From Williamsia sp. (GTDB lineage Bacteria; Bacteroidota; Bacteroidia; Chitinophagales; Chitinophagaceae), in the NCBI GenBank assembly GCA_015069695.1, contig JADCRZ010000002.1:248001-312000 (forward strand): 64,000 nucleotides of DNA, given 5' to 3'. This document shows positions 27,476-50,649 of the stretch, one piece after another. A model generated the notes under the pieces. That model had not been told where the DNA came from. It did not search any database and saw only the letters and a list, made by a program, of their open reading frames with translations. The translations under genes and the position numbers were made by a program. The first letter of the stretch is position 1. The number at the start of each line of letters is the position of its first letter.

Positions 27476-27507
27476 GATAGGGCGTAGCACGGTATGATAC
27501 CAAATTG

Positions 27508-27567: not shown

Positions 27568-27586
27568 TAGTTTTGGATAAGCTACA

Positions 27587-30730: not shown

Positions 30731-30747
30731 GTGTTGAAGATTTTGTC

Positions 30748-30770
30748 TGTCTTGAACCATGGTTCAGACA
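30748..30770. repeat. Minimal palindromic GTCTTGAACC element
   Basis: GTCTTGAACC and GGTTCAGAC meet with only two bases between them. These are the tips of the long nested elements at 40845-41069 and 50341-50649 without their interior. It sits between SusD and the rhamnosidase in Locus A. Confidence 0.75.
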
Positions 30771-30799
30771 ATCCCCATCCTGTAAATCAAGCTTCCAGA

Positions 30800-32497
30800 C
30801 TACCACCCCGGGTTTTGTGCCAGCTTTACGTCTTTGTTGGCGTCGATGACCAGTTGCGGGATGGGCCAGAGATTGTAGTTGAAGTTCAGGGTTGCTTTGG
30901 CTTCGGGCCAGAATGCATAGCGTTTGATCCTGTCTACGGCAACGGTGCCGCCCATGCGCAGCAGGGTGTTCCACCGGCATTCTTCGTATACCAGCTCGCG
31001 TGTGCGTTCGTCCAGGATGGTCTTGAAATTGTCGTCCATATCTGCTGCTGTAAACAAGTGGCTGCATTGCGCGCGGCTGCGAAGCAGGTTTACATCGGCA
31101 GCAGCACCGGATTTGTCGCCCGACCTTTGTTTGGCTTCGGCACGCAGCAGGATGGTTTCCGGCAGGCGGATAAAATAATCATCGCGGAACAGATTGCTGA
31201 GGTTTTCGCCGTCCGCCACTCCGGTGTATTTGTCGGTAGCGATCTTGCAGGAAACAGGGTAATCAAGACTGGTATTGTCCATTGAGTTGTACAGCACCGA
31301 CCAGGGTACTGGCTTGCCGTAATGAGGCGAGGTGGGTACATTGCCCAGGAATATGCGGCGGAACACGATCTCTGAATTGCGCATGTCTACAGAATCTATA
31401 CCGGCGTAAATGCTGTCGCGGGTGTACAGGGTGGGCGTTACCTGTGAGATGCCCCTTCCGCCTACATCTTCCAGCGTACCCATCAGGTGGGCCGGTGCGC
31501 CATTGCGGAACACCGGACCATAGATGCGGGAGTAGGGCAGCTTGGAACGCGGATCTTCTGCACGGTAGGCAGCATAATCGATCTGGATGGCCCAGATGCA
31601 TTCCTGGTTGCCATCCTGGTAGTTTACATTGTTTTCCTGGAACAAGTCCCAGTATACATTTCCTTTGGTTTCTGTTCTGCGGGAGCCATAGCGATTTTTC
31701 ATCAGGGAAAAAGTGCCGCCGTCGATGACCTTGTTGCCGTAAGCAATGGATTTGCTGAAAGCATCCTGCGCACCGGCTGAATTGCCATCGGTTGCCAGCT
31801 GGGTGCCCATAGCCAGGTAGAGTTCGCAGAGGTTGTGCTGGGCTGCGCCTTTTACAAGCCGTCCGCCTGTTGCGGTTACATCGGGCAGGTCGTTTTCGAT
31901 GGCCAGCAGTTCAGTGATGGCATACTGGTAGGTTTCTACGCGGGTGGCGCGTTTGTAATCGTAGCGGGCACTTTTGGTGATCTCGGTTACAATGGGCACA
32001 CCGCCAAAAAGCTCGGCCAGGTTGCGGTATGCAAAGGCACGGAAAAAGCGGGCCTGGGCCAGCGTATAGGCTTTGTCCTTTGCAGAAGCCCAGCTTACAC
32101 TGGGCAGCTCGGCGCTGTAGATGGCCAGGTTGGCCTTGGCGATGATCTGGTACCAGGCGCTGAAATTGCTGTAGAAAATGCCGTTGTTGGCGTTGATGGT
32201 GCCGTAGTTGTTAAACGAGTTGCCCCGCCGGATACTGGGCACATCAAATAAATCTGTTCCGTTGCCCCTGAATACAAAGATCCAGTTCTGCTCATCCGGA
32301 TTGGCCCAGATGTCACGCAGCTGCGAGTAGATGGATATCACGGCCTGGTCTACCTGTGCAGACGTGGTGAAGATATTGTCAACCGTATAAAAAGTTTCCG
32401 GGGTGGCCCGTAGAAATTTTTCATCCGCTTTTTTGCAGCTCACTGCCAGTGTCAGCAGGAGAAAACAAGCGCCTGTTTTTATCATCCCTATTTTCAT
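30800..32497 (-). CDS. SusD/RagB-family surface glycan-binding lipoprotein (2)
   Basis: 565 residues with lipobox LAVSC (C21). It has the SusD helical fold markers: AQARFFRAFAYRNLAELFGGVP in the middle and the C-terminal RLPETILLRAEAKQRSGDKSGAAADVNLLR and ERTRELVYEECRWNTLLRMG signature, then a NYNLWPIPQ segment near the end. It starts 18 bases after the SusC stop. Together with the preceding SusC it should capture rhamnosylated oligosaccharides for the GH106-like enzyme encoded next. At 565 residues it is longer than average, consistent with a larger ligand surface, which is only inference. Confidence 0.95.
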   Translation of the reverse strand: MKIGMIKTGACFLLLTLAVSCKKADEKFLRATPETFYTVDNIFTTSAQVDQAVISIYSQLRDIWANPDEQNWIFVFRGNGTDLFDVPSIRRGNSFNNYGTINANNGIFYSNFSAWYQIIAKANLAIYSAELPSVSWASAKDKAYTLAQARFFRAFAYRNLAELFGGVPIVTEITKSARYDYKRATRVETYQYAITELLAIENDLPDVTATGGRLVKGAAQHNLCELYLAMGTQLATDGNSAGAQDAFSKSIAYGNKVIDGGTFSLMKNRYGSRRTETKGNVYWDLFQENNVNYQDGNQECIWAIQIDYAAYRAEDPRSKLPYSRIYGPVFRNGAPAHLMGTLEDVGGRGISQVTPTLYTRDSIYAGIDSVDMRNSEIVFRRIFLGNVPTSPHYGKPVPWSVLYNSMDNTSLDYPVSCKIATDKYTGVADGENLSNLFRDDYFIRLPETILLRAEAKQRSGDKSGAAADVNLLRSRAQCSHLFTAADMDDNFKTILDERTRELVYEECRWNTLLRMGGTVAVDRIKRYAFWPEAKATLNFNYNLWPIPQLVIDANKDVKLAQNPGW

Positions 32498-32514
32498 AAA
32501 AATTTTTTAAAGAG

Positions 32515-35500
32515 TTAGAAACCCAGCGTGCCGCCGATTGAATATGTTGTTGGAACCGGGAAGGTATTGGCCTGTACGGTGGTGCCTGTTTCAGGATCGC
32601 CGCCGACCCAGTTGGTAAACCTGGCCAGGTTCTTTATGCCCAGGAATAATTTGAACGAGTTGAGCTGTACGGCCTTCATCCATTTTGCATCTACGTTGTA
32701 GGCCAGCGAGATGTCCTGTACACGCACAAATCCCCGCGACTGCAATCCCTGGAAACGGCTGTCGCCTGAGAAATAAGCAGAAGGATATACGTTGCTTTTG
32801 TTCTCCGGTGTCCAGTAAGGCTTTGAAATGGTGTTGTCATTAAAGCGGCCGGTTCCGGAAGTCATGTAAGCAGCGGTATTGCTTTGCAGGTAATAATTGT
32901 TGCCGCCGAAGATGCCGGATACCATTACATACAGTTCCAGGTTCTTGTAGCGGACGGTGTTGCTCAGGTTCAACCTGAAATTGTCTTTGTTATAACCCAG
33001 GATGGTCCGGTCGCTGGCGTCAATTTTTTTGTCGCCGTTCAGGTCTACGTATTTGGGTGCGCCGGGCGCTGCACCGGTGAGGGCGGTATAGCTGGTGTCG
33101 GTGGTCTGTACGATTCCGTTTTGCTTGAAACCGTATATGGCGCCCAGCGACTTGCCGATAAAAAAGTTGTTGGCAATATCATCGTCTTCCCGTCCGTCCC
33201 CATTCTTGTCTTCCCGGTACAGGTGGATCAGCTTGTTCTCATTTTTCCAGAAGATCAGGGAAGAGGTCCAGTTCAGGTCTCTCTTTTTGATGTTGACGGT
33301 TCTGATGGTGAGCTCGATCCCTTTGTTGCCAACCTCACCCAGCGAAGCCAGCTGCGTGCTGAAGCCCGTCATCACGGGGATGGTGCGTACAAATATCTGG
33401 TCGGTGGTTTTGGAAGAATAAAGGTCGAGGTCTACGAACAGGCGGTTGGTGAGCCAGGCCGATTCAAAGCCCAGGTTGATGGCCGTTGTTTTTTCCCAGC
33501 CCAGGGTCGGGTTGCCAAGCGTGGTTTGCACCAGCCCGTAGCTGATGGTTCCTTGGGCATTGGAGAACTCGTAGCGGGAATTGCCGGCTGCGCCATTCTG
33601 CACCTGCGAGAGGGTCGCATAAGGCCCCAGGCCCTGGTTGCCGTTCTGCCCCCAGGAGAATTTCAATTTGAAGTTGTTCAGCGGCTTTATGTTCTTCAGG
33701 AATTCTTCTGCCGAGATGTTCCAGGCCCCGCCGATGGCGGCAAAGTTGGCCCAGATCTTGTCTTCCCCAAAAACCGATGCACCATCCCGGCGGATAGAAC
33801 CGGTGAGATAGTATTTGTCGTTGAATGAATAATTCAACCGGGCCAGGTAGCCGATATTGGCCCGCTCGCTGTTGTTGAGAATAACTTTTTGTACGGTCGC
33901 TTTCGACAAGCCATATATGCCCAATGCCGTGTTTCCGTTGGCGGCGAAATTGCTTCCGGTGGCGTTCACCGTATCGGCTTTGAGATGGTCTCTGGTGGCA
34001 ACCAGGGTTGCCGTAATCGCGTGTTTGCCGAAGCGGTTGTCGTAAGTTACGATGTTGTCAAAAACATATGTATTGATGGTAGAATTGAGCAGGTTGCCGT
34101 TGGCATTGGACAGCAGCGACTGCACCGAAGCCGGATCATACCGGCCTGCAATGCCGGCGCCTTCCTTGATATACCAGTTTTCATACGTAAAACCGCCGGC
34201 CTGCCGCTTGTCTGAATTGGAGAGCAGGTTTACCCGGTAGCTCAGTCCTTTGATCCAGGGGATTTTTACAACCCCGTATGCATTCAACCTGAAATTGTTG
34301 GTGACATCCACGTTCTTGATGGTGCCATCGTTTACGCCCCACAGTGGATTGGCGAGCGATTGGGTATAAGGATATTTTTCCAGGTGCCCCAGCGAATCGC
34401 GGTACATGACGCCGTAGGGCGACATCAGCTGCGCAGCCCCTACGTTGGCCGCTATGCCTGAATAATCGAGGTTGGAATAGTTGGCGTCTACACCCAGCTC
34501 CAGCCAGGAAGTGACCTTTGTATTGAGTTTGCCAAACACAGACACACGCCTGAACCAATCGCCCACCACGATGCCTTTGTTTTCATTGTAGGACGAAGAC
34601 AGGTAATAATTGACGCCTTGCGCACCGCCGGAAACAGCTGCCTGATAATCCTGCTGGATGCCGGTTTGGGTTACCTGGTCGAGCCAGACGGTTTCTTTGC
34701 CGGCATTGAGGTTGGCCAGCTCGCCTGCCTGCAGCCAGTTGGTGCTGCCCGGTGTGTAGCGGTTGCGGGCGTTCACGACTGAGAGCCATTCTGTTCCTTT
34801 CATCATGACGGGCTGGTTCTGCCAGGTTTGAAAACCTGTGTTGGAGCGCAGGGTAATAACCGGTTTTCCGCTCTTGCCTCGTTTGGTAGTTATTGCAATG
34901 ATGCCGTTGGCTGAGCGCGAACCATAAGCCGCTGCTGACACCGCATCTTTCAGGATGTCGAAGCTGGCAATATCGTTCGGACTGATATCGCTTAAGGCAC
35001 CCAGGTAGATCACACCATCGAGGAGGATCAGGGGGGTATTGGAGCCGCTGATAGAGCGCTGTCCCCTGATCTGGATGCTGGGCTCGCCGCCAGCCGAGTT
35101 AACGGCGCCTACATTCAAACCCGATACATTACCCTTGAGGGCTTCCAGCGGGTTCTGGTTGGGCAGTACGGAAAGCGGCGAATTCTCCAGCTTTACAGAT
35201 GCAACAGCGCCGGTGAAGTCTTTGCGGCGGGCTGTACCATAGCCGATCACCACCACATCGCTTAACGCCGTTGAATCGCGGTGCATGGTAATGTTCAGCA
35301 CCAGGTTGTTGCCCAGCGCAACTTCCTGCGTGGTATAGTTCACGTAAGTAAACTGCAGAACCCGGGTATTGGCAGAGACCGGCAGGCTGAACGTTCCATC
35401 AGTTCCGGAACTCGCGCCCTGCGAAGAGCCCCTGGCCACAACAGATACACCGGGCATGGGCTCTCCCGCGTCGTTTCGCACCGTACCGGTCACGGTCCTT

Positions 35501-35628
35501 GTCTGCGCCACCAGGGCTTGAACAGACAAAACCAACATGATACAAAGAAGATAAAAAAGTTTTCGAAAAGGAGGCTTGCTGGCGGGCATAGCAGGGATGG
35601 AAGGGAGAGGCGTACTCATTCTTGTCAT
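32515..35628 (-). CDS. SusC/RagA-family TonB-linked outer-membrane receptor (2)
   Basis: 1037 residues. A somewhat long leader ends near VQALVAQ, followed by a carboxypeptidase-regulatory domain (VTGTVRNDAGEPMPGVSVVARG), a TonB box/plug (DVVVIGYGTARRKDFTGAVASV, IRGQRSISGSNTPLILLDGVIY, FDILKDAVSAAAYGSRSANGIIAITT) and a barrel ending in PTTYSIGGTLGF. It lacks an STN domain, so it does not signal through an ECF sigma/FecR pair. ATG at 35628 gives the full leader; MPASKPPFRKLFYLL about 14 residues later is possible. It is the first gene of Locus A and lies back to back with Locus B across 588 bases. Confidence 0.95.
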   Translation of the reverse strand: MTRMSTPLPSIPAMPASKPPFRKLFYLLCIMLVLSVQALVAQTRTVTGTVRNDAGEPMPGVSVVARGSSQGASSGTDGTFSLPVSANTRVLQFTYVNYTTQEVALGNNLVLNITMHRDSTALSDVVVIGYGTARRKDFTGAVASVKLENSPLSVLPNQNPLEALKGNVSGLNVGAVNSAGGEPSIQIRGQRSISGSNTPLILLDGVIYLGALSDISPNDIASFDILKDAVSAAAYGSRSANGIIAITTKRGKSGKPVITLRSNTGFQTWQNQPVMMKGTEWLSVVNARNRYTPGSTNWLQAGELANLNAGKETVWLDQVTQTGIQQDYQAAVSGGAQGVNYYLSSSYNENKGIVVGDWFRRVSVFGKLNTKVTSWLELGVDANYSNLDYSGIAANVGAAQLMSPYGVMYRDSLGHLEKYPYTQSLANPLWGVNDGTIKNVDVTNNFRLNAYGVVKIPWIKGLSYRVNLLSNSDKRQAGGFTYENWYIKEGAGIAGRYDPASVQSLLSNANGNLLNSTINTYVFDNIVTYDNRFGKHAITATLVATRDHLKADTVNATGSNFAANGNTALGIYGLSKATVQKVILNNSERANIGYLARLNYSFNDKYYLTGSIRRDGASVFGEDKIWANFAAIGGAWNISAEEFLKNIKPLNNFKLKFSWGQNGNQGLGPYATLSQVQNGAAGNSRYEFSNAQGTISYGLVQTTLGNPTLGWEKTTAINLGFESAWLTNRLFVDLDLYSSKTTDQIFVRTIPVMTGFSTQLASLGEVGNKGIELTIRTVNIKKRDLNWTSSLIFWKNENKLIHLYREDKNGDGREDDDIANNFFIGKSLGAIYGFKQNGIVQTTDTSYTALTGAAPGAPKYVDLNGDKKIDASDRTILGYNKDNFRLNLSNTVRYKNLELYVMVSGIFGGNNYYLQSNTAAYMTSGTGRFNDNTISKPYWTPENKSNVYPSAYFSGDSRFQGLQSRGFVRVQDISLAYNVDAKWMKAVQLNSFKLFLGIKNLARFTNWVGGDPETGTTVQANTFPVPTTYSIGGTLGF

Positions 35629-36216
35629 ACAGCAATTATTATAAAAATGGATAGAACAAAAGAATTCAGGCAGCAGTCTTGGCAGCTTCCGGTTAAGGAC
35701 AATGGTTTGGGTGAAAATGATGCGTGACAGAGTCCTATTTTCCTTACTTTTATTCAGTCAACTATCCCTTGAACAGAAAGAGCCTGCCGGATTGGTTATT
35801 GTGCCAAGAACCACCACTTCTTTCTGCCTCATAAAGAGAAAAGACCGGTCATGCTGTATAAGGCGATCAAAATATTTTTTTAGCCGTGTAGGGATAACAG
35901 ATTGTCTGATCGTATCATTCATAACCAAATGAAAGGAAACAGACCACTTGACCAACTGCTGTTGCTCTACCACGCAAGCATTAGATGCACGAAGAAGGAT
36001 ATAGCCAACCTGTATTTTATCGGTACCTGCGGTGAAACAGATTCTTTGGAAAAGTTCTTAAGCAGATAACAGGAATCAACAATTTAAAATGAACCAAGCA
36101 AAATGACCAGTTTGTTATAGCCAGATAAGCCGGGTAAGACAGCGATTGCACATTCATCTGGCAGCGAGGATAGACTTGTAAGACTATTCTTTTTCATTTA
36201 TAAAACGGTATGTCGT
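35629..36216. other. Divergent intergenic region between two SusC loci
   Basis: 588 bases that must hold promoters for both Locus A (minus) and Locus B (plus). I could not place a convincing TTG / TAnnTTTG-type promoter pair. The stretch 35758-36057 reads as an open minus-strand frame without a good start and may be a decayed gene. Confidence 0.6.
35758..36057 (-). pseudogene. Possible remnant of a LytTR-type DNA-binding domain
   Basis: The frame is open for about 99 codons between stop codons, with no ATG near its beginning. The translation contains KIQVGYILLRASNACVVE, then VIPTRLKKYFDRLIQHDRSF and FMRQKEVVVLG, an order and spacing that recalls the LytTR fold (strand with polar ligand side chains, then an LxxLxxxF..RxH/DRSF helix and a terminal strand). 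A transcriptional regulator between two divergent SusC genes would make sense. The match is weak and could be chance; a genuine LytTR protein is longer. Confidence 0.25.
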
Positions 36217-39200
36217 ATGAAACATCGTGGACGAATGTCCGGGACGCTTTCTTCGGTCCTGGTGTTCCTTCTATCTGCCTGTCAGGTTTACCATGCAGCT
36301 GCGCAGCAGCCCGCCCCTATCGTAAGGGGTGTGGTGCAAAACACAAACAACGAGCCGCTTCCCGGCGTATCGGTTGTAATCAGAAACACAAAGACAAATT
36401 TTTCCACCGGCACCGCGACCGACAGCAGCGGCATCTTCCATTTTGCCGGCATCCAGGCCGGCGGGCCCTACAGCTTCAGCTTTTCCATGGTCGGTTTTGA
36501 AAACCAAACCCTGTCGGGGTACAACCTCAAGACCGGTGCTACCCTGTCGCTGGGCATCAAACTGGTGCAGCTGGGCACCTCACTTGACCAGGTGGTGGTA
36601 GTTGGATACGGAGCCCTCAAACGAAAAGACCTGACCGGCTCGGTAGGCTCGCTGCCTGCCAGGGAAATAAAAGACCTGGCCGTGCCCCGCGTAGAGCAGG
36701 CGCTTTCAGGCAGGGTGGCAGGCGTACAGGTAAAGTTCGCCGATGGTACGCCGGGCGGTGCGCCCCAGATCCGGGTCAGGGGCATCGGCAGTATTTCAGC
36801 AGGCGTAGATCCGCTGTACGTGGTAGATGGTTTTCCGACAGACAACATTCAAACCATCAACCCCAACGACATTGAAAGCCTCGACATCCTGAAAGATGCA
36901 TCGGCCACGGCCATCTACGGATCGCGCGGCTCCAACGGCGTGATCATTATCAATACCAAGCGCGGCACCACCGGCACGACCAAGATCAATTTTGATACCT
37001 ACTACGGTGTGCAGCAGGTGACGCGGCAGCCTGAATTTTTTAATGCCCGTCAACAGGCAGACTATTATTACAATTCTATCCGCAACAGGAACATGGACCT
37101 GGGCAACAGCGTTTCAGGCGATCCTGCCACCTGGGCCATCCGCGTTCCGCAGACTGTGCTGGATGTGATATCCGGAAAAAATACCAACGATGTGAGTGCG
37201 TTGGATGCGGTGCTCAGAACAGCCCCGCAACAGAGCTACAACCTTTCTTTCAGCGGGGGCACGCCGGCCGTAAGATATGCCGTGAGTGGTGAATACCTGA
37301 ACCAGGACGGTATTATCCTGAACAGCAATTTCAAACGGTATTCCATCCGCGCCAACCTGGATGCACAGATCACCAGCAAGCTGTCGGTCAGGCTGAACTT
37401 AAATCCTTCCTTCACCAAAAACAAAAATGTGATTGCATCAGGCGGCGGCGCCGGTGCTTCCAACAGCATCATCGGTTCTGCCACGTCTGCCCAGCCTTAC
37501 TATCCCCTGTACAATCCGGATGGCAGCTACTTCATTTACCAGTCGATCGATGCTTCTACAGACCTGTATAACCCGCTTGCCCTGGCGCTGGAGAAAAAAG
37601 ATATTTCTACCCGGGCGCGCATCCTCACAAATGCCAGTTTAGAGTACAAGTTCACAAACGCGCTGCGGTTCAATGTCCTGTTTGGCGCTACGCTGAACAA
37701 TGCCAAATCATCCAGCTTTATGCCCCAGCTGCCGGTATTTTTAAATGCCGCTGCAACAGGTACAGATGCTGCTTTTTCGGGGTACGACTGGCTGGCAGAA
37801 TATACCCTTCATTACAACAAAACCTTTGGCAAGCACGGCATTGCGGCCCTGGCAGGGTACACGGCCCAGGAAGATGTGAACGAGCAAAATTCCATCAGCA
37901 GCAACAACTATCCCAACAACCTGATTCCTTACCTGAGTGCAGTGAGCGGCATTATTACCACGGGCACGGCTACAAAAGATGAATGGTCCATCGTTTCGCA
38001 GCTGGCAAGGATCAACTACAATTATGATGGTAAATACCTGGTTACGGCGTCTATCCGCCGCGATGGTTCCTCCCGGTTTGGCTCCAACAACAAGTATGGT
38101 GTGTTTCCATCGGCAGCCCTGGCCTGGCGGGTATCGGATGAAAGCTTTCTGCAGGGGGTGCGTATGGTGAGCGAGCTCAAGCTGCGCGCCAGCTACGGAA
38201 AAACAGGTAACAACAACATCGGTAACTATGCGCCGATCTCTACGGTCAACTATGTAAAATACACCACGGGCGGTGCGGCCATCGGCGGTTTTGTTCCGGC
38301 CGTAATTCCCAATCCTGACCTGACCTGGGAAACACAGCAACAGTTTAACGGAGGAATTGACCTGGGCTTGTTTGGCGGGCGGTTAGCCATCACCGTTGAC
38401 CATTTTGTATCCAGGAACAAAGACCTGCTGCTCAATGTAAACATTCCTACTTCAACCGGTTTTAGCACAGCACTCAAAAACATCGGTGAAGTAAAAAACA
38501 ACGGTTGGGAGTTTGTGGTAAGTTCTACCAATATCAGCACAAAGAATTTCCGCTGGACAACCGACTTTAATATCTCTACTTACAAAAACAAAGTGGTGCG
38601 GCTGGGCCCGTCGGGGGATGATATTATTGTGGGCAACAACATCACCCGGGTGGGAGAGCCCATCGGTATGTTTTACGGATATATCACAGACGGTATCTTT
38701 AAAAACGCTGCCGAGCTGGCTGCGGGTCCCATCTACAACAAAGGTCTCTCAGACGAAACCAAGGCGGGCGATATCCGGTTCAAAGATGTAAGCGGTCCCA
38801 ATGGCAAGCCGGACGGCATCATCACCAATGCCGATCTCGCCATCATGGGCAGTCCTTACCCTGATTTTTATTATGGCATGACCAACCGCGTTTCTTACAA
38901 AAGCATCAGCCTGAGCTTTAACATAGCCGGCTCGCACGGCGCACAGATCTACAACAATGGCATGATGATCTACCGCCTGATCCGCTCGCGCAGCCGGACC
39001 CTTACCACCGAGCTCAACTACTGGAAATCGGAAGCTGACCCCGGTGACGGAAAAACGGTGCGGCCTGATGATGTGCCCAGAGGCGGGCTCCGGCTGCCCA
39101 GCACACGCTATATCGACAACGGGTCTTACCTGCGCGTGAACAACATCACCCTGGGTTATGCGATGCCGGAGCCCATCACCCGTTTATTCAAGCTCAACGG

Positions 39201-39363: not shown

Positions 39364-39383
39364 TATAAAACCAGCTTAGTCAT

Positions 39384-40841: not shown

Positions 40842-40844
40842 ATA

Positions 40845-41069
40845 TGTCTGAACCATGATTGTCTTGAACCAGGATTACACGGATTAAAGGCTTACCAGGA
40901 TTGCAGCTTGAGAGTGAATTATCTTGAAGTTGATCGAAACGTATGTTGAAGGATCAATCTTTATGTATGAGTATCAATTATTGTTCAGATGATCCACTAT
41001 CGAACACTAATCCTGTAATCCTTTAATCCGTGTAATCCTGGTTCAAGACAAAAAATCAAGGTTCAGACA
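40845..41069. repeat. Nested palindromic element, copy 1
   Basis: Outer arms 40845-40860 and 41054-41069 (tip TGTCTGAACC) pair with one mismatch. Inner arms 40861-40890 and 41020-41049 (tip GTCTTGAACC) are perfect reverse complements over 30 bases, with partial pairing a further dozen bases inward. About 120 bases of less structured sequence lie in the middle. It occupies nearly the whole gap between SusD and the first Locus B hydrolase. Confidence 0.9.
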
Positions 41070-41082
41070 AAAAATCAACTCT

Positions 41083-43251: not shown

Positions 43252-43302
43252 CAACAGATAATTCACAATCGCCAACAGGCTGTAAAAGCAAAAAATGATA
43301 CT

Positions 43303-45078
43303 ATGAACTGGACACAAGTCATCGATCCGTTAAAGAATGCGACCCTGTCGGCCATCGTGGCCGTACTGCCGATCTTATTTATTTTCTGGGCCCTGATCAT
43401 AAAAAAGATGAAAGGCTACCAGGCCAGTTTACTGGCCGTGCTGATTGCCATCCTTATTGCCATCTTTGTATATGGCATGCCGGTTCAGCTGGCGCTTCTT
43501 TCCACCGCCAATGGCGCCCTGTATGGATTGTTCCCTATCTGCTGGATTGTAGTAGCGGCTGTTTTTCTGTTTAACATCACCGTGAAGAGCGGCCAGTTTG
43601 AGATCATCAAGCACTTTATGGCTTCCATCACTTCCGACAGGCGTTTGCAGGCCCTGCTCATTGCTTTTTCTTTTGGCTCTTTCCTGGAAGGCACGGCCGG
43701 CTTTGGCGCACCGGTGGCCATCACGGCTGCCATGCTGGTCGGACTGGGCTTTAACCCCCTGTATGCAGCTGGCATTTGTTTGATCGCCAACACGGCGCCC
43801 GTGGCATTCGGGGCCATTGGTATTCCGATTACAGTGGCATCGCAGGTGACCCAGGTGCCGGAGATGGCTATTTCGCAGATGGTAGGAAGAACCCTGCCGA
43901 TCTTGTCGATCATCCTGCCATTTTACCTGGTTGTACTCATGGCCGGTTTTAAGAAGGCAGTAGATGTACTGCCGGCGATCCTGGTGTCGGGCGTTTCTTT
44001 CGCCCTGCTGCAGTGGTTCTCGTCCAACTTTATCGGGCCCTCTCTCCCTGATGTGATTGCAGGGATCGGCTCCATTATTTGCCTGGTCATTTTTCTCAAG
44101 TTCTGGAAAGTAAAACAGGTCTGGCATTTTCCCCATGAGCCGGCTCCTACCATAAATACAACGGTCCATTACTCTTCCGGACAGATCGTGCGGGCATGGT
44201 CGCCTTTTATTGTGCTTACGGTGATGGTAATTGCATGGGGTTTGCAACCGATCAAAGCCTTGTTTAATGATCTGGTAAAAACAGAGTTTGCATTCCCCGG
44301 CCTGCACAATGCCATTATCGACAAGGCAGGAAAGCCATTGGGGCATATTTTCAAGTTCAACTATTTGGCAGCTTCCGGAACAGCTATTTTTCTTTCTGCG
44401 CTCCTGTCTATTCCCCTCTCCGGTTTGAAGCTGACAGATGCCATCCAGCTGTTTGGTAAAACCCTGCGGCAGCTCCTGTTCCCGATCATCACCATTGCCT
44501 CGGTGCTTGGGTTTGCGTACATACTCAACGACTCGGGGATCACGATCACCATTGCAGAAGCACTGGCAAAAACAGGTTTCCTGTTTCCGTTCTTTGCACC
44601 CGTGCTGGGCTGGCTGGGTGTTTTTATCACCGGCTCAGATACTTCTGCCAATGCCTTGTTCGGCAAGCTGCAAGCCACTACTGCTACTTCTATCGGTGTT
44701 GATCCGGTGATCACCGTAGCAGCCAACGTATCGGGTGGGGTAGTGGGTAAGATGATCTCGCCACAATCCATTGCTGTTGCAGCCGCTGCCGGCCACCTCG
44801 TGGGCGAAGAGTCAAAACTGTTCAGGTTTACAGTGAAGCATAGCTTTATCATGCTCTTGTTTATCTGTTGCATCGTGTTTGCACAGGCTTATGCATTCAA
44901 ATGGCTGATCCCCCGTTATAACATGCTTGCTGCCGGAACGGCAGCCGCTATTGCTGATTTATCAAAAGGGCGCGCTTATCTTTTTGTGCTGGCCTCCGTG
45001 CTGATCGCATTTGCTGTACTCATCTTTTTGCTCAACAGAAAAAAAGATTCTCCCATTCCCTACACTGCAACAAAATAA
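43303..45078 (+). CDS. LctP-family lactate/hydroxyacid permease
   Basis: 591 residues with about 14 hydrophobic segments, including SFGSFLEGTAGFGAPVAITAAM, ICLIANTAPVAFGAIGIPI and ITGSDTSANALFGKLQ, which are hallmark stretches of the LctP/LldP lactate permease family (proton-coupled uptake of lactate, glycolate and related small 2-hydroxyacids). The family is normally ~550 residues, so the length is normal. It lies inside a polysaccharide utilisation locus beside hydroxyacid dehydrogenase and glycerate kinase genes, so the natural substrate is probably D-glycerate, glycolate or lactate freed from the glycan outside or in the periplasm. The next gene starts 5 bases after its stop. Confidence 0.92.
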   Translation: MNWTQVIDPLKNATLSAIVAVLPILFIFWALIIKKMKGYQASLLAVLIAILIAIFVYGMPVQLALLSTANGALYGLFPICWIVVAAVFLFNITVKSGQFEIIKHFMASITSDRRLQALLIAFSFGSFLEGTAGFGAPVAITAAMLVGLGFNPLYAAGICLIANTAPVAFGAIGIPITVASQVTQVPEMAISQMVGRTLPILSIILPFYLVVLMAGFKKAVDVLPAILVSGVSFALLQWFSSNFIGPSLPDVIAGIGSIICLVIFLKFWKVKQVWHFPHEPAPTINTTVHYSSGQIVRAWSPFIVLTVMVIAWGLQPIKALFNDLVKTEFAFPGLHNAIIDKAGKPLGHIFKFNYLAASGTAIFLSALLSIPLSGLKLTDAIQLFGKTLRQLLFPIITIASVLGFAYILNDSGITITIAEALAKTGFLFPFFAPVLGWLGVFITGSDTSANALFGKLQATTATSIGVDPVITVAANVSGGVVGKMISPQSIAVAAAAGHLVGEESKLFRFTVKHSFIMLLFICCIVFAQAYAFKWLIPRYNMLAAGTAAAIADLSKGRAYLFVLASVLIAFAVLIFLLNRKKDSPIPYTATK

Positions 45079-45083
45079 ATCCC

Positions 45084-45995
45084 ATGAACGAATCTTTGCA
45101 CAAATACATGAAGGTGGGACTGGTTCATTTTATGGCATTCCCTTCCACCATACGGGGAGAAGGTCCCATTCTGGAAACAATTAAAAAGGTAGCGGTTGAT
45201 GAATATTTCACTGCCATCGAGATTACTACGATCAGGAACAGGGAAGAAAGGCAGCAGGTAAAAAAGATGCTGGAGACTGCCCACATGGCTGTTGCTTATG
45301 GCGGACAGCCCCGCCTGCTGACCACCGGCTTAAACATCAATGACCTGAACGAAGAAGGCCGGCAAAAAGCCCTGGCCAATTTAAAAGAAGGCATCGATGA
45401 AGCCTATGAAATTGGTGCTGCAGGCTTTGGCTTTTTAGCCGGCCGGTATGAAGAAGCCACCAAAGAAGAATCATACCGGGCGCTGGTGCAATCGACCCAA
45501 GAATTGTGCAGCTATGCCAAAAGCAAGGGCGACCTGAAGATAGCCATTGAAGTGTTTGATTACGATGTGGACAAGAAAGCCCTGATCGGTCCGGCCCCGC
45601 TGGCCCTGCGGTATGCCCAGGAGATCAGGGAACAGCATGCCCATTTCGGGTTGATGGTTGACCTGAGCCATATCCCCCTGATCCATGAAACCATCGAAGA
45701 ATCTGTGCTGCCTGTGAAAGATTATATTACGCATGCCCACATCGGCAACTGCGTGGTCAAAAGCGCGGAGATGCCGGCTTACGGCGACCTGCACCCGCGG
45801 TTTGGCTTCCCGGGCGGCGAAAACGATGTAGCGGAGGTAACGGCCTTTTTGCGCATCCTGCTGGAGATCGGTTATCTCAACGACCGCAATCCGCCCTTTC
45901 TCAGTTTTGAGATCAAACCCTTTGGCGATGAAGACCCCGATGTAGTGATCGCCAATGCCAAGCGAACCTTGAACGAAGCATGGGCCAGGGTGTAA
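45084..45995 (+). CDS. Xylose-isomerase-like TIM-barrel protein, hydroxypyruvate isomerase-like
   Basis: 303 residues forming a single xylose-isomerase-like (AP endonuclease 2) TIM barrel: MKVGLVHFMAFP as strand 1, AAGFGFLAGRYEEATKEES, KIAIEVFDYDVDKKALIG, FGLMVDLSHIPLIHE, HAHIGNCVVK and FLSFEIKPFGDEDP. The order of Glu, Asp, His and Glu (IEVF, MVDLSHIP, HAHIGN, SFEIKP) fits a divalent-metal site of sugar isomerases and epimerases. Next to a glycerate dehydrogenase and kinase, hydroxypyruvate isomerase is plausible, but other ketose epimerase roles fit equally well. A start at 45108 (MKVGLVHF) is possible. Tight operon spacing with its neighbours. Confidence 0.8.
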   Translation: MNESLHKYMKVGLVHFMAFPSTIRGEGPILETIKKVAVDEYFTAIEITTIRNREERQQVKKMLETAHMAVAYGGQPRLLTTGLNINDLNEEGRQKALANLKEGIDEAYEIGAAGFGFLAGRYEEATKEESYRALVQSTQELCSYAKSKGDLKIAIEVFDYDVDKKALIGPAPLALRYAQEIREQHAHFGLMVDLSHIPLIHETIEESVLPVKDYITHAHIGNCVVKSAEMPAYGDLHPRFGFPGGENDVAEVTAFLRILLEIGYLNDRNPPFLSFEIKPFGDEDPDVVIANAKRTLNEAWARV

Positions 45996-46053
45996 AAAAA
46001 TACAGATCCACCCGCATCCTATTCCAAATTAAATTGCAGCAAAGACAAAACAT

Positions 46054-47013
46054 ATGAAGATTGTAGTACTGGACGGATATACCCTCAACCCCGGCGACCT
46101 GAGCTGGGACGGACTAAAGCAATTGGGCGACTTGACAGTATATGATAGAAGTCCGCCGGATACTGTGGTAGAACGCGCAACCGGCGCAGAAGTCGTTTTT
46201 ACCAACAAGACCCCGCTGGGCGAAGATATTTTAAAGCAGCTTCCTGCCTTGCAGTTCATCGGCGTACTGGCAACCGGATACAATATCGTCAACAGCGATG
46301 TGGCAAAAGCAAACGGCGTAGTAGTGGCGAATGTGCCGGGCTATGGAACTGCCTCCGTAGCGCAGCTGACATTTGCCCTGCTGCTGGAGCTTTGTCACCA
46401 CGTGCAGCACCACAGCGAAACCGTAATGGATGGCAAATGGGTACGCAGCGCCGACTGGTGCTACTGGGATTACCCCCTGGTAGAGCTGGCCGGCAAAACC
46501 ATCGGCATCATTGGCTTCGGCCGCATCGGCCAGCAGGTAGGCGATATAGCCACAGCTTTTGGAATGAACATTATCGGAAATGCCCGGCACCGCTCCGATC
46601 AATCGCAGCGACCTAACTTCCGCTGGGCCGATGTTCCTGAACTGCTGGAAGGATCAGATGTGGTGAGCATTCATTGCCCGCTTTTCCCGGAAACCAAGGG
46701 GCTCATCAACAAACAAAGCCTGCAGCAGATGAAACGGTCGGCTTTCCTGTTGAATACTTCACGGGGACCGATCATTGTTGACCAGGACCTGGCTGATGCG
46801 CTCAACGAGGGCGTGATTGCAGGTGCCGGGATTGATGTGTTATCCGTTGAGCCGCCACCAAAAGACAATCCCTTGTTCGGCGCAAAAAACTGCATCATCA
46901 CGCCGCATATTGCCTGGGCCACCCAGGAAGCAAGAGCCCGGCTCATGAAAATCACTGTTGATAACCTGACAGCATTTCTCCAGGGGCATCCGGTGAATGT
47001 GGTCAACAAATAG
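46054..47013 (+). CDS. D-2-hydroxyacid dehydrogenase, glycerate dehydrogenase-like
   Basis: 319 residues. The Rossmann motif GIIGFGRIGQQVGDIA binds NAD(H), and the catalytic triad of the family is visible: Arg in NTSRGPIIVDQD, Glu in LSVEPPPKDNP and His in ITPHIAWATQEARAR. The N-terminal part includes ATGYNIVNSDVAKANGV. Length and motifs match D-glycerate dehydrogenase / hydroxypyruvate reductase, though D-lactate and other 2-hydroxyacid substrates are possible. It lies between the TIM barrel and a hydrolase in Locus B, with glycerate kinase one gene further, which strongly suggests interconversion of hydroxypyruvate and D-glycerate. Confidence 0.88.
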   Translation: MKIVVLDGYTLNPGDLSWDGLKQLGDLTVYDRSPPDTVVERATGAEVVFTNKTPLGEDILKQLPALQFIGVLATGYNIVNSDVAKANGVVVANVPGYGTASVAQLTFALLLELCHHVQHHSETVMDGKWVRSADWCYWDYPLVELAGKTIGIIGFGRIGQQVGDIATAFGMNIIGNARHRSDQSQRPNFRWADVPELLEGSDVVSIHCPLFPETKGLINKQSLQQMKRSAFLLNTSRGPIIVDQDLADALNEGVIAGAGIDVLSVEPPPKDNPLFGAKNCIITPHIAWATQEARARLMKITVDNLTAFLQGHPVNVVNK

Positions 47014-47070
47014 GACAGGAGGGGAGGGGAATGACAGGGTACGTCTTGCGCTGCTTTAAAACCATGTTAT

Positions 47071-49206
47071 ATGAAAAAGAAAATCTCCCTGTTTGTTGCA
47101 GCCCTGGTAGCTGGTTGTTGCAGTACAGCCGTTTTTTGTCAGGGAGTCGTTAACCTGTCTTCCATCGATCCGGGGCATTACGATACAACCTGGTGGAACC
47201 GGGCACCTTACAGGCTGGTACAAACGAACCTGCGGGAGATTGACGCTGCGATGGATGTAGCAGCCTATGTGCAATCGATGGTAGATGCGCATGCCAGTAT
47301 CGTGCTGATCAATGTAGGCGGCATTGTAGCAAATTACCCCACCCAATTGCCGTTTCATTTCAGGAATACCTACATGAAAGGTGACCTGGTGGGCGATCTG
47401 GTAAAAGGACTGCATGCAAAGGGAATCCGCGTGATCGGCCGGTTTGATTTCAGCAAGATCAACGAAACGCTGGCTGCCAGAAAGCCGGAGTGGCTGTACG
47501 TATCCACTGCAGGCAAAAATGTAAATTATAACGGGCAGGTACATACGTGCATCAACGGCGGATACCAGCAGGAATACGCCAAGGAAATCCTGAAAGAAGC
47601 CCTCGGTACCTATCCGCTTGATGGTGTATTTTTTAACATGGTCGGCTATACCACGTCCGACTACAGTGGCAACAACTATGGCATCTGCCAGTGCGAAAAT
47701 TGTAAAAAGCGGTTTCATGATTCTACCGGCCATGTTTTGCCGGTAAAGGCAGATATGAATGACCCCGTGTACAGGGAGTACAATGATTTTAAAAAAACGA
47801 CCGCCGACAAACTTTTCCGTGAGATCCGGGAGCACATCAAAACAGTGAACCCCAAGCTGATGATCAATACCTACACCGATGCCGGGGTAGACATGATCGC
47901 CAGTGAATCGGGCGCTGATCTGTCGCCGGAATATGAATGGAATTACTCGGCAAGCGACAATGTAAAACGTGTGCTGGGGTCCTATAAAGACAGATCACCC
48001 GGCAACCTCCTGATTTATTTTCAGGCCATCAGTTATCGCCACGTAGGCACTTCACCCAACCTGGCCAAGGTGTGGATGCTGGAAAACATGCTGCAGGGAG
48101 CACCCATGGGCTTTGTTGTCGTGGGCACACTGGTCAATTATGAAGACCGCATTTTTATTCCTACCCTCAACCGATTGTACGGCTTTCATCAAACCTATGA
48201 AAAGTTGTTCACCAATATCCAGGCCGTGAGCAAAGTGGCCCTTATCAGGGGCACGCGCGTTGAGTACCAGGGCCTGATCAAGCTGCTCACGGAAGAGCAT
48301 ATCCCTTACGATATCATTGAGCCTGCTGTGATCGGAACCGGCAGGATGCCGCGCCGTTTGGAAGAATATGAAGCGGTGATATTGGGCGGTGTTGATAACA
48401 TGGACAGTGCGCTTGTAAATGCATTTGATGCGTATGCAAGAAATGGCGGAAAGATCCTGGTAACAGGTGCTACTTCCACCAGGGATGGGTCTGGCAAACC
48501 CATGAACAGCATCCGCCTGCGATCGCTGGGCGTTGATCCGTCCTATGAACTGTTCAAACAGGCGCCTTCAACCTACCTGAAGGTGCAGGCAGCAGACAAA
48601 GCAGCGCTCGGGCAAAAAGAACTGGCTGATTTCAGCATCGTTATGCAACATTCCGATTTTCTGGGTTGCAAGCCTGTGGGTAGCGCAAAAGGATACCTGA
48701 ATTTTTTGCCGCAAACCCGGTTCGGCCCGCCGGAAAAATCCTATTACACGCAGGAAGACATAACCGGTTTTCCCGGATTGATCAGCAATAATTACGGCAG
48801 GGGAAAAAGCGTTTTTATTCCCTGGGAACTGGGAGAGCAGTATTATCAGAAAGGCCACTACATGCACCGCGCCTTGTTTGTAGCAGCCCTGCAAAACTTA
48901 TTACAAGTAAACAGGGAGCTGGTCACCGATGCATCACCCCTGGTGGAACTAACGCACCTGGCTAACCGAAACAGGGCATTTGAATGGCTGGGTTTGATCA
49001 ATCATTCCGGGCAGCTGGGCGGCTCCTTGCGGGAACCGGTCAGCATGCATGATATTCACCTGGGCTTTCTGCCGGCAAAGCCTGTGAAGGAGATCAGGCT
49101 GCTGGCGTCCGGCAAAACGGTCCCCTTTGTGCAAAAAGGGGGCAGGGTAGATTGTACAATTCCGGTCTTGAATGATTTTGAGATGGTGCTTTGTTTGTAT
49201 CAATAA
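47071..49206 (+). CDS. Putative glycoside hydrolase, GHL6-like (B), paralogue of 41083-43251
   Basis: 711 residues with a signal peptide (MKKKISLFVAALVAGCC, cleavage near VFCQ). It repeats the layout of the hydrolase at 41083: DAHASIVLINVGGIVANYPTQLPFH, DGVFFNMVGYTT, a cysteine pair (CQCENC), then a C-terminal region (KVALIRGTRVEYQGLIKL; YEAVILGGVDNMDSALVNAFDAY) like the trimerisation domain. It lacks the Tat signal and has a standard Sec signal, so the two paralogues may fold in different places and use different partners. Identity is modest, so the duplication is old. Substrate is unknown. Confidence 0.75.
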   Translation: MKKKISLFVAALVAGCCSTAVFCQGVVNLSSIDPGHYDTTWWNRAPYRLVQTNLREIDAAMDVAAYVQSMVDAHASIVLINVGGIVANYPTQLPFHFRNTYMKGDLVGDLVKGLHAKGIRVIGRFDFSKINETLAARKPEWLYVSTAGKNVNYNGQVHTCINGGYQQEYAKEILKEALGTYPLDGVFFNMVGYTTSDYSGNNYGICQCENCKKRFHDSTGHVLPVKADMNDPVYREYNDFKKTTADKLFREIREHIKTVNPKLMINTYTDAGVDMIASESGADLSPEYEWNYSASDNVKRVLGSYKDRSPGNLLIYFQAISYRHVGTSPNLAKVWMLENMLQGAPMGFVVVGTLVNYEDRIFIPTLNRLYGFHQTYEKLFTNIQAVSKVALIRGTRVEYQGLIKLLTEEHIPYDIIEPAVIGTGRMPRRLEEYEAVILGGVDNMDSALVNAFDAYARNGGKILVTGATSTRDGSGKPMNSIRLRSLGVDPSYELFKQAPSTYLKVQAADKAALGQKELADFSIVMQHSDFLGCKPVGSAKGYLNFLPQTRFGPPEKSYYTQEDITGFPGLISNNYGRGKSVFIPWELGEQYYQKGHYMHRALFVAALQNLLQVNRELVTDASPLVELTHLANRNRAFEWLGLINHSGQLGGSLREPVSMHDIHLGFLPAKPVKEIRLLASGKTVPFVQKGGRVDCTIPVLNDFEMVLCLYQ

Positions 49207-49223
49207 AAACGGAACCTTCGCGC

Positions 49224-50390
49224 ATGCACATCCTGATTGCACCCAATGCATTTAAACACAGCCTGACCGCCGAAGCGGCAGCACAGGCCATAGAAAAAGG
49301 ACTGCAGCAAAGCAGGCTAGTCTGCCAGACAACCTGTTTCCCTGTAGGTGATGGCGGCGATGGAACCGCTGCGCTGATCATCAACAAACTGGAAGGGGCT
49401 TGGGTGCCTACTCCGGTGCATGATGCATTGGGAAGAGAAATCCAAACCCATTTCGGTTTGATAGACAGGGGCCAAACAGCAGTGATCGAAATGGCTGATG
49501 CATCCGGACTGCGCTTGTTAAAACACGATGAGCTAAACCCGTTGATAGCAACCTCTTACGGAACTGGGGAGCAGATCAGGATAGCGCTGGATAAAGGTGC
49601 AGGGAAGATCATCGTGGGTATGGGCGGTTCGGCAACTGTAGATGGTGGCTGTGGCATCCTGCAGGCACTGGGCATCCGGTTCCTGGATGCAGCCGGTGCA
49701 GAGCTCACCGGCTTGCCCGGAAGCTTGACCCATTTAGCCAGCCTTGATCTGTCCGGGCTCGACCCCCGGGTCTTGCAGGCAGAACTGATTGTGCTCTGCG
49801 ATGTAGACAATTTCTTGCTGGGCCCGGTAGGAGCAGCAGCCATGTTTGGTCCGCAGAAAGGCGCATCGCCCCAGGCCGTTCAACAGCTGGATGCAGCGCT
49901 GGCCCGGTTTGCAGAACTTGCCTTGGTGCAAACAGGCAGAGACATGGCTTCGGTAAAATACGGCGGTACAGCAGGTGGGGCTTCTGCCGGTTTGTACGCC
50001 CTGCTCAACGCAAAGCTGGTAAATGGCATCGAGCATTTTTTACAACTTACCCATTTTGATGTGGCACTGGAGAAGGCTGGTCTGGTCATCACCGGGGAAG
50101 GCAGCATAGATGAACAAACCTTGCAAGGCAAGGGGCCCTTTGGTGTAGCCAGTCATGCCAAACAAAAAGGCCGTGGCGTCATTGGCCTGGCAGGCAAGGT
50201 GCCGCTGGAAAGAAGTTCAGCCCTCCAGACTTATTTCGATGTGCTGCTAGCCATCGGCCACCAACCAGCCGATTTGGCAACAGCACTGGCTGACACAGAA
50301 AGCAATCTGATCCGCACCGCCCGGGAGCTGGGGAATTTTCTGAACCTTGATTTACAGGATTTAAGGGATTTGGGGACGTTGGTCCTTTGA
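49224..50390 (+). CDS. Glycerate kinase
   Basis: 388 residues of the GlxK/GarK-type glycerate kinase family: MHILIAPNAFKHSLTAEAAAQAIEKG at the start, CFPVGDGGDGTAAL, ATSYGTGEQIRIALDKGAGKIIVGMGGSATVDGGCG, and GLVITGEGSIDEQTLQGKGPFG. It phosphorylates glycerate with ATP to 2-phosphoglycerate or 3-phosphoglycerate, feeding glycolysis. I chose ATG at 49224, directly before the first strand; a start at 49191 would overlap the preceding gene. The final codons (LNLDLQDLRDLGTLVL) lie in the outer left arm of palindromic element copy 2, so the C-terminal tail was probably created by the repeat. Confidence 0.93.
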   Translation: MHILIAPNAFKHSLTAEAAAQAIEKGLQQSRLVCQTTCFPVGDGGDGTAALIINKLEGAWVPTPVHDALGREIQTHFGLIDRGQTAVIEMADASGLRLLKHDELNPLIATSYGTGEQIRIALDKGAGKIIVGMGGSATVDGGCGILQALGIRFLDAAGAELTGLPGSLTHLASLDLSGLDPRVLQAELIVLCDVDNFLLGPVGAAAMFGPQKGASPQAVQQLDAALARFAELALVQTGRDMASVKYGGTAGGASAGLYALLNAKLVNGIEHFLQLTHFDVALEKAGLVITGEGSIDEQTLQGKGPFGVASHAKQKGRGVIGLAGKVPLERSSALQTYFDVLLAIGHQPADLATALADTESNLIRTARELGNFLNLDLQDLRDLGTLVL

Positions 50391-50649
50391 TCAGCTTGCG
50401 GAGGCTTTTTGTCTGAACCAGGATTACACGGATCCACGGACTACAGGATTGATTGGTAAGGGTGTAGCATCTTGGAGTTGATCGATACTCATCTTTAAAG
50501 ATCGATTCCTCAAGCTGTAATCCTATGATCCGTGGACCCGTATAATCCTGGTTCAGACAATTTCCTCGCTTAGCGGACAAACTACTGTCAATGTATAATG
50601 ACTCACCTGTACCCAATCCTTTCAATCCCTAAAATCAAGGTTCAAGACA
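50341..50649. repeat. Nested palindromic element, copy 2
   Basis: Outer arms 50341-50370 and 50625-50649 match imperfectly (tip TGAACCTTGA). Inner arms 50410-50451 and 50519-50560 (tip TTGTCTGAACC) pair over about 42 bases with about five mismatches. Compared with copy 1, three base pairs in the inner stem have changed on both sides and still pair. It overlaps the end of glycerate kinase and fills the gap to the next hydrolase. Confidence 0.88.

Follow-up and report, generated by a model that had tools for sequence, protein, structure and literature searches.

What are the nested palindromes that lie between the genes of this 64-kb stretch of DNA (the window), and at what level is the match between their arms maintained? 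In the original prediction, two nested palindromes, a copy consisting only of tips, and a lone arm were regarded as one family with co-varying stems, in which structure rather than sequence is kept. All four are present where they had been placed, the palindromic copies having no strand assigned. Copy 1 (40846-41068) has outer tips at 40846-40860 and 41054-41068, which enclose an inner element of subtype A (40861-41049) with the tip GTCTTGAACC and arms of GGATT words at 40861-40904 and 41006-41049; it occupies the gap at 40842-41082, which separates a SusD gene from a GHL6-type gene, and begins 4 nt past the SusD ORF. In copy 2, the outer element, of subtype B (50338-50648), has a left tip with one mismatch, TTCTGAACC, and a right tip ending at 50648, and the inner element, again of subtype A (50411-50558), begins with GTCTGAACCAGGATTACACGGATCCACGG and has arms at 50411-50452 and 50517-50558. 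The left arm of this outer element of copy 2 overlaps the last codons of a glycerate kinase ORF (49191-50390), whose Pfam match stops at residue 383 of 399, that is, at position 50339. The tip-only copy (30749-30769), GTCTTGAACC A TGGTTCAGAC, is made of two tips placed back to back and sits where a SusD gene (30800-32497, minus strand) meets a GH106 gene (27587-30760, minus strand); an inverted-repeat search at the settings used reported no pair there. The lone arm, GTCTGAACCATGATT, lies on the minus strand at 56614-56628, and the ORF at 56616-57335 (minus strand) ends with a TGA stop codon that belongs to this arm (56616-56618, minus strand). In copy 1, both arms carry the inner box GGATTAAAGG; in copy 2, the box is GGATCCACGG on the left and GGGTCCACGG on the right. 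As had been claimed, three inner-stem pairs are altered on both sides with pairing kept, and one further position does not pair.

Counted in the window only, matches to the tip that allow a mismatch exceed chance slightly (13 versus 9.3 expected, with as many in 16 of 100 shuffles); a second such count gave 16 versus 10.7 expected (3 of 100 shuffles). Across the 7.66-Mb host genome, the tip word GTCTGAACCAGGATT occurs with at most one mismatch at 135 places (68 + 67) and the tip word GTCTTGAACCAKGATT at 78 + 73 places, the reversed control giving 0 in each case. The arms in this genome consist of the tip GTCTGAACC followed by GGATT every 8-9 nt, forming an array of short words, and inspection of 56 tip pairs reveals tips like GTCT(T)GAACC at both ends. 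Among the 147 genomes of its bacterial family that were searched, the host has the most copies, and the reversed tip pattern has one match each in three of the 147; one other genome of the host's genus, which is 84% complete, has no copies of the pattern and was therefore unsuitable for an empty-site comparison. The tests on the host's own copies described below used 32-47 copies from the genome stretches examined, a subset of all copies.

The one match to GxxExxY (TIGR04256) in the host genome is a C-terminal remnant, and it lies between two arms of this repeat family. Intact GxxExxY genes (129-142 aa) are flanked by GTCTGAACC tips in the related genomes G028, G100, and G052. In G013, one flank of the gene carries the tip itself, and the other is occupied by a small hairpin that lacks a gene but bears the tip as well. 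The loci L296, L297, L299 and, less cleanly, L300 each have an intact GxxExxY gene enclosed by arms of this word family. In the four gene-bearing relatives, the distance from first to last tip is 480-573 nt; the four were chosen by eye from the listed tip places and consequently serve as examples, not as a rate. Flanking inverted repeats (score of at least 14) are found at 49 of 70 GxxExxY loci of the family (the 70 obtained of 72, from the best-scoring matches listed), compared with 10 of 107 control ORFs and 46 of 830 between-locus pairings. Furthermore, at the same score threshold, inverted word-array arms lie tightly around 63 of 79 named GxxExxY loci from many phyla; the controls gave 5 of 290 when shifted and 104 of 938 when arms were paired between loci. 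The search behind this set favors conserved proteins and yielded 80 loci, of which one was dropped because its flank was short. Clear arms are absent from 21 of the 70 family loci and 16 of the 79 named loci. GxxExxY occurs in 94 of the 147 family genomes searched. It is present in 41 of the 47 with the tip (the other 6 having the tip and no GxxExxY match) versus 53 of the 100 without it, a comparison in which the Fisher test ignores relatedness. The explanation favored here, to which we assign a probability of roughly 60%, is that the repeats belong to a hairpin mobile element, most of them as non-autonomous copies without a gene, and that the full form of this element encodes GxxExxY as a minimal Cas4-like nuclease.

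GxxExxY is predicted to be a minimal PD-(D/E)XK nuclease with a fold like that of Cas4 and lambda exonuclease. Its structure model is confident (pLDDT 95.8), and the best PDB match of the model in Foldseek is Cas4 SSO0001 (E 8.8e-3, with none at E ≤ 0.001); a sequence-profile search of the PDB gave no match at E ≤ 1. The active-site-like residues D62, K74, Q86, and Y90 are invariant, with E72 nearly so in one alignment and all of them invariant in another, and H-D-ExK-Q-Y is the motif of RecB/Cas4 nucleases. The type of arm also follows the clade of the protein. Loci with GATT arms encode GNGFQE proteins in 12 of 12 cases (four of which could be L296, L297, L299, and L300, obtained because of their tips), and loci with CNCNNAG arms encode GPGLLE-like proteins in 73 of 73; a single change of arm type is needed on the protein tree among these 85 typed loci. 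The tree was built from 133 of 154 sequences after removal of those that had stop codons or came from short loci, and 48 of its sequences, with "other" arms, stand outside the 85 compared; when these loci are included, the GATT label changes 6 times on the tree rather than once (shuffled mean 11.6).

A matching architecture is seen around four-helix-bundle genes outside rRNA, which have inverted arms of 7-nt words. The set comprises 25 of the 30 best-scoring genes, and its between-locus control is higher (56 of 288) because the arms share words. Four helix bundle protein (TIGR02436) is present in 111 of the 147 family genomes; as a partner for the repeats in the host genome it was considered and rejected, since the same search yields 0 matches there. 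The existence of several arm alphabets among hairpin arrays, including those around four-helix-bundle genes, would also suit an alternative in which hairpin arrays arise and are spread through errors of host replication (template switching or slippage), and the nuclease gene, mobile in its own right or of a defense type, tends to land or to be kept in them. Gene-less arrays of other alphabets, read by eye in the leuC-leuD gap of some relatives, can be explained in the same way. However, the arms lie tight around the gene on both sides, and the clade of the protein predicts the arm type without exception in the 85 typed loci. We consider this alternative unlikely.

The second alternative is that the repeats are RNA elements, transcribed hairpins selected as signals for mRNA processing, stability, or attenuation, whose spread is secondary. 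Their folding is strong (copy 1, -109.7 kcal/mol, z -13.3; copy 2, z -7.2), they are located downstream of stop codons, often within operons, and their arms co-vary. The co-variation exceeds chance, as had been anticipated: the arms of one copy are more alike than arms permuted within subtype, with 20 and 2 of 20000 permutations as high. Within subtype A, the matching is modest (0.81 versus 0.77), and the own partner is the single best arm match in only 8 of 35 copies. If pairing in RNA were the selected property, G.U pairs should be favored over A.C mismatches in the stems. However, on the transcribed strand of 18 own co-directional copies there are 38 G.U versus 40 A.C, in the stems of gene-bearing loci 47 versus 56 and 18 versus 16, and in those of named loci 61 versus 59. 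Such counts vary with the stringency of the alignment, being 171 versus 172 for GxxExxY stems at the loosest setting, then 98 versus 102, 47 versus 56, and 27 versus 31, and 4 versus 14 at the strictest. Since the stems show no surplus of G.U pairs relative to A.C mismatches, the arm matching appears to arise at the DNA level rather than from selection for RNA pairing. The nested palindromic family and its co-variation are supported, and the idea that the repeats are kept as RNA structure is not supported. Moreover, in 32 of 35 subtype A rows (nested copies share ends), the sequence continues past the right tip with AA rather than with the U tract that directly follows the stem of an intrinsic terminator; the arm words are very different between loci and taxa, and the window has no Rfam match at gathering thresholds. 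The RNA explanation is consequently judged quite improbable.

The position of the copies is not random, as had also been proposed, and the rule that emerges is a location just behind a stop codon. Using mechanical longest-ORF gene calls, 28 of 43 own copies are within 10 nt of a stop codon, versus 16% of 1922 random positions drawn solely from element-free, non-divergent gaps of the window, and in 14 of the 43, the stop codon of a neighbor lies inside the element. Both own copies and gene-bearing loci (49, 47, and 22 loci in the respective tests, each with arms scoring at least 14 and a gene on both sides) tend to begin a few bases past the stop codon. By gene orientation, 47 own copies comprise 21 between co-directional genes, 16 between convergent genes, 0 between divergent genes, 3 inside an ORF, and 7 at an edge. 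A special link to SusC/D operons, suggested by the copies in the window, is not supported: 0 of 10 neighbors scanned elsewhere in the genome match the SusC/SusD families, these being a beta-lactamase family protein, GH3, T9SS plug, PAP2, pirin, enolase, and four without a match.

Between near-identical strains, neither excision nor insertion of an element was seen. In Flavobacterium sp. 7A, an element lies between leuC and leuD, and relatives that do not have the element show gaps of 5-44 nt at this site; others have it filled by the gene-less arrays mentioned above, the comparison being one between species and genera. Orthologous elements in Flavobacterium are also found between a hemW-like gene and a cyclase gene. 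Among plasmids, 8 records have a GxxExxY relative, all below 60% identity, and so offer no near-identical pair for an empty-site comparison. At the ends of 46 copies, there is no direct repeat of at least 5 nt (39 have none at all and 7 have one of 3 nt), and insertion is consequently not provable from the junctions. Nesting within a loop is seen in a minority, about 7 of the 46, and flank complementarity overall is not above that of between-copy pairing (p 0.45); insertion into palindromes as a general rule has accordingly been dropped. Because the host holds only a GxxExxY remnant, the system is probably not active there now.

The same data bear on a third alternative, in which the repeats are conventional MITEs: their terminal inverted repeats would be those of an ordinary DDE insertion sequence, and the draft assembly would happen to lack its full copy. 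MITEs are likewise non-autonomous copies with inverted ends, and the high copy number, the gene-less copies, and the presence of several contig ends near copies would be expected. However, no target-site duplication is seen at the 46 copies, and the four gene-bearing relatives carry GxxExxY in a span too short for a usual transposase gene, and we judge this reading improbable as well. Finally, REP palindromes moved by a Y1 tyrosine transposase (RAYT) share the preferred kind of site but can be set aside almost entirely for this genome, since the host assembly (99.3% complete) has 0 matches to Y1_Tnp (PF01797) in a search that was positive in 5 of 14 control genomes, the tips resemble GTCT(T)GAACC with no GTAG or CGTC foot, and the linked gene is that of a PD-(D/E)XK nuclease.

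In the favored model of a nuclease-encoding hairpin element, the full element comprises one small gene between two inverted word-array arms. Its movement would take place at the DNA level, probably through a hairpin extruded on single-stranded DNA, with the GxxExxY nuclease recognizing its own arms and cutting at the hairpin; the gene-less copies would be mobilized in trans. What keeps the arms alike would be either copying templated by the hairpin or a requirement for a matched hairpin as substrate, with no part for selection at the RNA level. Some copies would insert into the loops of older hairpins, thus generating the nested copies of the window, and since the tip supplies TGA codons, a gene that receives a copy at its 3' end would suffer little harm.

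Such an element has points in common with several known systems. IS200/IS605 elements also have hairpin ends, no target duplication, and single-stranded DNA as a possible intermediate, but here a PD-(D/E)XK nuclease takes the place of Y1. According to PMC3733652, REP sequences sit downstream of ORFs between co-directional and convergent genes, as the host's copies do, and REPs and REPtrons likewise combine high-copy palindromes at gene 3' ends with gene-less copies and rarer gene-bearing ones that have matching flanks. In contrast, the repeats described here have long word-array arms, where REPs measure 20-40 bp, and a Cas4-like nuclease gene instead of a transposase gene. The intervening sequences of 23S rRNA are described in PMC4990558 as a stem-loop with one small ORF between complementary ends that replaces a hairpin loop inside a transcript. 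Such intervening sequences are removed from the transcript by RNase III; however, the window copies lie between protein genes rather than in a 23S or 16S rRNA helix, and the gene is GxxExxY rather than S23.

Taken as a whole, the presence in many bacterial phyla of fuller versions with one small nuclease-like gene points to an overlooked kind of mobile DNA. A broader proposal, which we hold tentatively and at somewhat less than even odds, is that there is a widespread, unnamed class of iteron-armed hairpins that spread at operon junctions, immediately downstream of stop codons. The driving factor would be GxxExxY, a minimal Cas4-like nuclease that recognizes the alphabet of its own arms. Four-helix-bundle (S23) proteins would drive a sister class with 7-nt iterons, with the 23S rRNA intervening sequences as a special case that landed in rRNA loops.

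To our knowledge, neither GxxExxY nor four helix bundle protein has an assigned function. Among the PMC papers searched, none was found that deals with inverted word arrays around GxxExxY or four-helix genes, and none with the arm sequences searched; the word GxxExxY does occur in two papers, one of them PMC8934634. The association of both proteins with inverted word-array arms suggests what they are for, and it offers an origin for the intervening sequences of rRNA. If each protein acts on the alphabet of its own arms, a mobile element that has no transposase would be powered by a Cas4-like nuclease, and if this is true, the origin of many intergenic hairpins that lack an explanation in such genomes could be accounted for.

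The four repeat features of the original prediction were all found in place in the window. In the first long copy, outer tips (the outer words of the palindrome arms) at 40846 and 41068 enclose an inner element at 40861-41049, the whole occupying the gap between the SusD gene and a GHL6-type gene; in the second, at the end of the glycerate kinase gene, the outer arm begins at 50338, the inner element lies at 50411-50558, and the outer tip ends at 50648. The other two features, a tip-only copy and a lone arm, match their description. Both long copies fold as RNA far more strongly than shuffled sequence (z -13.3 for copy 1 and -7.2 for copy 2), and the proposed compensatory changes are present in the inner box, where 3 positions are altered on both sides between the copies with pairing retained. 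Elsewhere in the window, a near-perfect 34-nt palindrome of unrelated sequence at 27502-27569, between two convergent genes, may be a terminator acting in both directions or a different element; shorter palindromes lie in the co-directional gaps at 1947-2106 (left arm from 2005, score 19.5) and 12630-12769 (left arm from 12672, score 15).

With at most 1 mismatch, GTCTGAACCAGGATT occurs at 68 + 67 places and GTCTTGAACCAKGATT at 78 + 73 places in the 7.66-Mb source genome, the reversed control giving 0 in each case. Stretches fetched from this genome yielded 56 tip pairs, or 47 once outer duplicates were dropped, and the copies fall into two subtypes, A (GTCTGAACCAGGATTACACGGATCCACGGATTACAGGATT) and B (GTCTGAACCATGATTTACAGGATTTGAGGGATTCGGGGA). 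At three loci (L017, L063, and L016) and in both window copies, an A element is nested in a B loop; overall, about 7/46 copies are nested, and flank complementarity across source-genome copies was not significant in an overall test (p 0.45). The loops of six copies (L014, L025, L027, L070, L072, and L075) harbour a second palindromic family unrelated to this one, TTTGTCATCCTGTAAGGGCGC ... CGGAATGACAAA, in both orientations. In addition, at least 8 contigs of the genome (C11, C19, C46, C112, C140, C185, C197, and C203) start about 350 bases or less from a tip, as if the assembly had broken at palindromes.

If an RNA hairpin were under selection, G.U would be expected to outnumber A.C among the mismatches on the transcribed strand. 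No such excess was seen, which speaks against the idea that structure is kept as RNA: G.U and A.C mismatches numbered 38 v 40 in 18 co-directional copies of the source genome and 61 v 59 in 63 of the named loci (79 loci from many phyla). With the strand set by the element's gene, they numbered 47 v 56 at loci of GxxExxY, a small PD-(D/E)XK nuclease-like gene (TIGR04256), and 18 v 16 at loci of a four-helix-bundle gene. Arms nevertheless match within copies. When they were swapped among copies inside one subtype, with three mixed copies excluded, within-copy agreement was 0.81 vs 0.77 permuted for A (n=19; 20/20000 permutations as high) and 0.77 vs 0.69 for B (n=13; 2/20000), a modest effect in which a copy's own partner arm was the single best match for 8/35 copies. 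The co-variation of the arms is genuine and not RNA-like, and their likeness is maintained by something at the DNA level.

The source genome has no Y1_Tnp or RAYT match, although a RAYT-type gene had been suggested as a possible partner, and no match to the four-helix IVS-type gene. Its sole GxxExxY match is a C-terminal remnant flanked by two arms of the window repeat family. Within the same bacterial family, GxxExxY is present in 94/147 genomes: 41/47 of those bearing the tip vs 53/100 of those without it (Fisher p 2.9e-5, kinship ignored). Three genomes (G028, G100, and G052) carry intact GxxExxY genes of 129-142 aa between GTCTGAACC tips with GATT words; in a fourth, G013, a 135-aa gene is bordered by a tip at one end and by a small tip-bearing hairpin that lacks a gene at the other. 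One of the four same-tip gene-bearing examples is thus not clean. Gene-less copies (L298 and L302-L304) occur in the same genomes as gene-bearing ones or in others, one of which, G005, has no GxxExxY match.

Flanking arms, scored as inverted repeats hugging the gene with a score of at least 14, were found at 49/70 GxxExxY genes among the best-scoring matches listed in the same bacterial family (the family loci), vs 10/107 control ORFs and 46/830 between-locus pairings. For the named loci, which come from Bacteroidota, Verrucomicrobia, Planctomycetes, Acidobacteria, Chloroflexi, Cyanobacteria, Proteobacteria, and others, the figures were 63/79 vs 5/290 shifted controls and 104/938 between-locus pairings. 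Two loci are from archaeal MAGs, one with arms (L229) and one without (L208). The arms are word arrays, their short words often being CACAGAG/CGCAAAG-like and elsewhere GGATT-like with the GTCTGAACC tip; genome G096 has a different word, CACATAGGAACATAGGAAG, at 33 places with at most 3 mismatches (control 0). Proteins are of the GNGFQE type at 12/12 GATT-arm loci and GPGLLE-like at 73/73 CNCNNAG-arm loci, arm type changing once on the protein tree among these 85. Over all 133 tree rows, including 48 with 'other' arms, the GATT label changes 6 times (shuffled mean 11.6; 0/500 shuffles as low). This match of clade and arm essentially amounts to a single evolutionary split, and so is support for, rather than proof of, the idea that the protein recognises the arms. 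Across 39 GxxExxY sequences, four residues never vary (D62, K74, Q86, and Y90) and E72 hardly does; in a set of 13, none of the five varies. Pfam assigns the protein to PDDEXK_3. Its predicted structure is confident (pLDDT 95.8), and the best PDB matches are the Cas4 protein SSO0001 and lambda/alkaline exonucleases, with weak E-values (best 8.8e-3, none <= 0.001).

The copies are placed non-randomly, with a stop codon within 10 nt of 28/43 source-genome copies vs 16% of 1922 random positions. In 14/43, the neighbour's stop codon lies within the element; in the window, ORF 56616-57335 takes its stop from the lone arm, and the ORF for glycerate kinase enters the B arm at most 2 nt from the end of its domain match. 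Of 47 copies, 21 lie in co-directional gaps, 16 in convergent gaps, 3 within ORFs, 7 at edges, and 0 in divergent gaps, which make up 1675/3597 element-free intergenic bp of the window. For gene-bearing elements, the upstream gene is on the same strand as the element's gene at 38/49 named, 43/47 family, and 20/22 four-helix loci. Between same-direction neighbours, the median distance from upstream stop to arm start is 6, 7.5, and 4 nt, respectively, and that from arm end to next start is 14, 10.5, and 8 nt. The implied empty gaps at GxxExxY loci (23 nt named, 24.5 nt family) are smaller than other co-directional gaps there (102 and 84 nt); at four-helix loci, the implied gap of 16 nt is not smaller (18.5 nt, n=10). 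Divergent gaps hold 8/49 named loci, and thus siting behind stop codons is a tendency rather than a law. Such siting could reflect targeting, but it could equally well arise if insertions that do harm in tight operon gaps are selected against.

In Flavobacterium sp. 7A, an element lies between leuC and leuD in a gap of 532 nt. The joined flanks were matched in 67/395 genomes of the class, and 12 relatives, across species and genera, were read. In 6/12, the gap is 5-44 nt and the element is absent; in the other 6/12 it is 74-116 nt, several being filled, as judged by eye, by word arrays that lack a gene and use other alphabets, as if the junction had been repeatedly hit. By eye, the gene-less arrays at L258, L259, L260, and L273 differ in alphabet (AAACCT, TCTAAAA, AGCTAAA). 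Long inheritance of elements is also possible, given that GxxExxY lies behind the same gene, radical-SAM/HemN_C, in four Flavobacterium genomes: at L193, L247, and L252 by domain check, with a cyclase gene downstream, and at L240 from ORF size and DNA alignment.

The four-helix-bundle genes (TIGR02436, Pfam 23S_rRNA_IVP), a candidate sister class, have flanking inverted repeats at 23/25 loci (between-locus pairings 56/288). Their arms have a 7-nt period, with matches of 0.71 (lag 7) and 0.70 (lag 14) against 0.34 expected; at L142-L171, inverted 7-nt arrays surround the genes, with words such as TAAGTTT, TTAGGCT, and TTAGATG. Arms of the window repeat family peak at lags 8-9 (0.40, 0.39 v 0.27), and periodicity in GxxExxY arms generally is weak, at lags 8-10 (named loci 0.39-0.35 v 0.32; family loci 0.30-0.33 v 0.30). 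The rRNA intervening sequences, some with four-helix genes, are described as stem-loops in place of small 23S rRNA helix loops (PMC4990558) and would fit as a special case of this element class.

The best explanation overall, with a probability of roughly 60%, is a DNA element that moves as a hairpin. Such an element would fold where single strands are exposed, and its putative nuclease would read the arm alphabet and open the hairpin tip. Gene-less copies would be served by the enzyme in trans, and insertions would persist mostly behind stop codons. Target duplications are lacking at the source-genome copies examined, and this, together with the insertions into loops, fits a single-strand route. 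The original observation is confirmed and its interpretation partly supported. No account of such elements was found in the part of the PMC literature searched; the lifestyle of the window repeat family is like that of REPs and MITEs and is already known. Novelty would lie in the motor, in how the arms are designed, and in the tie to rRNA intervening sequences.
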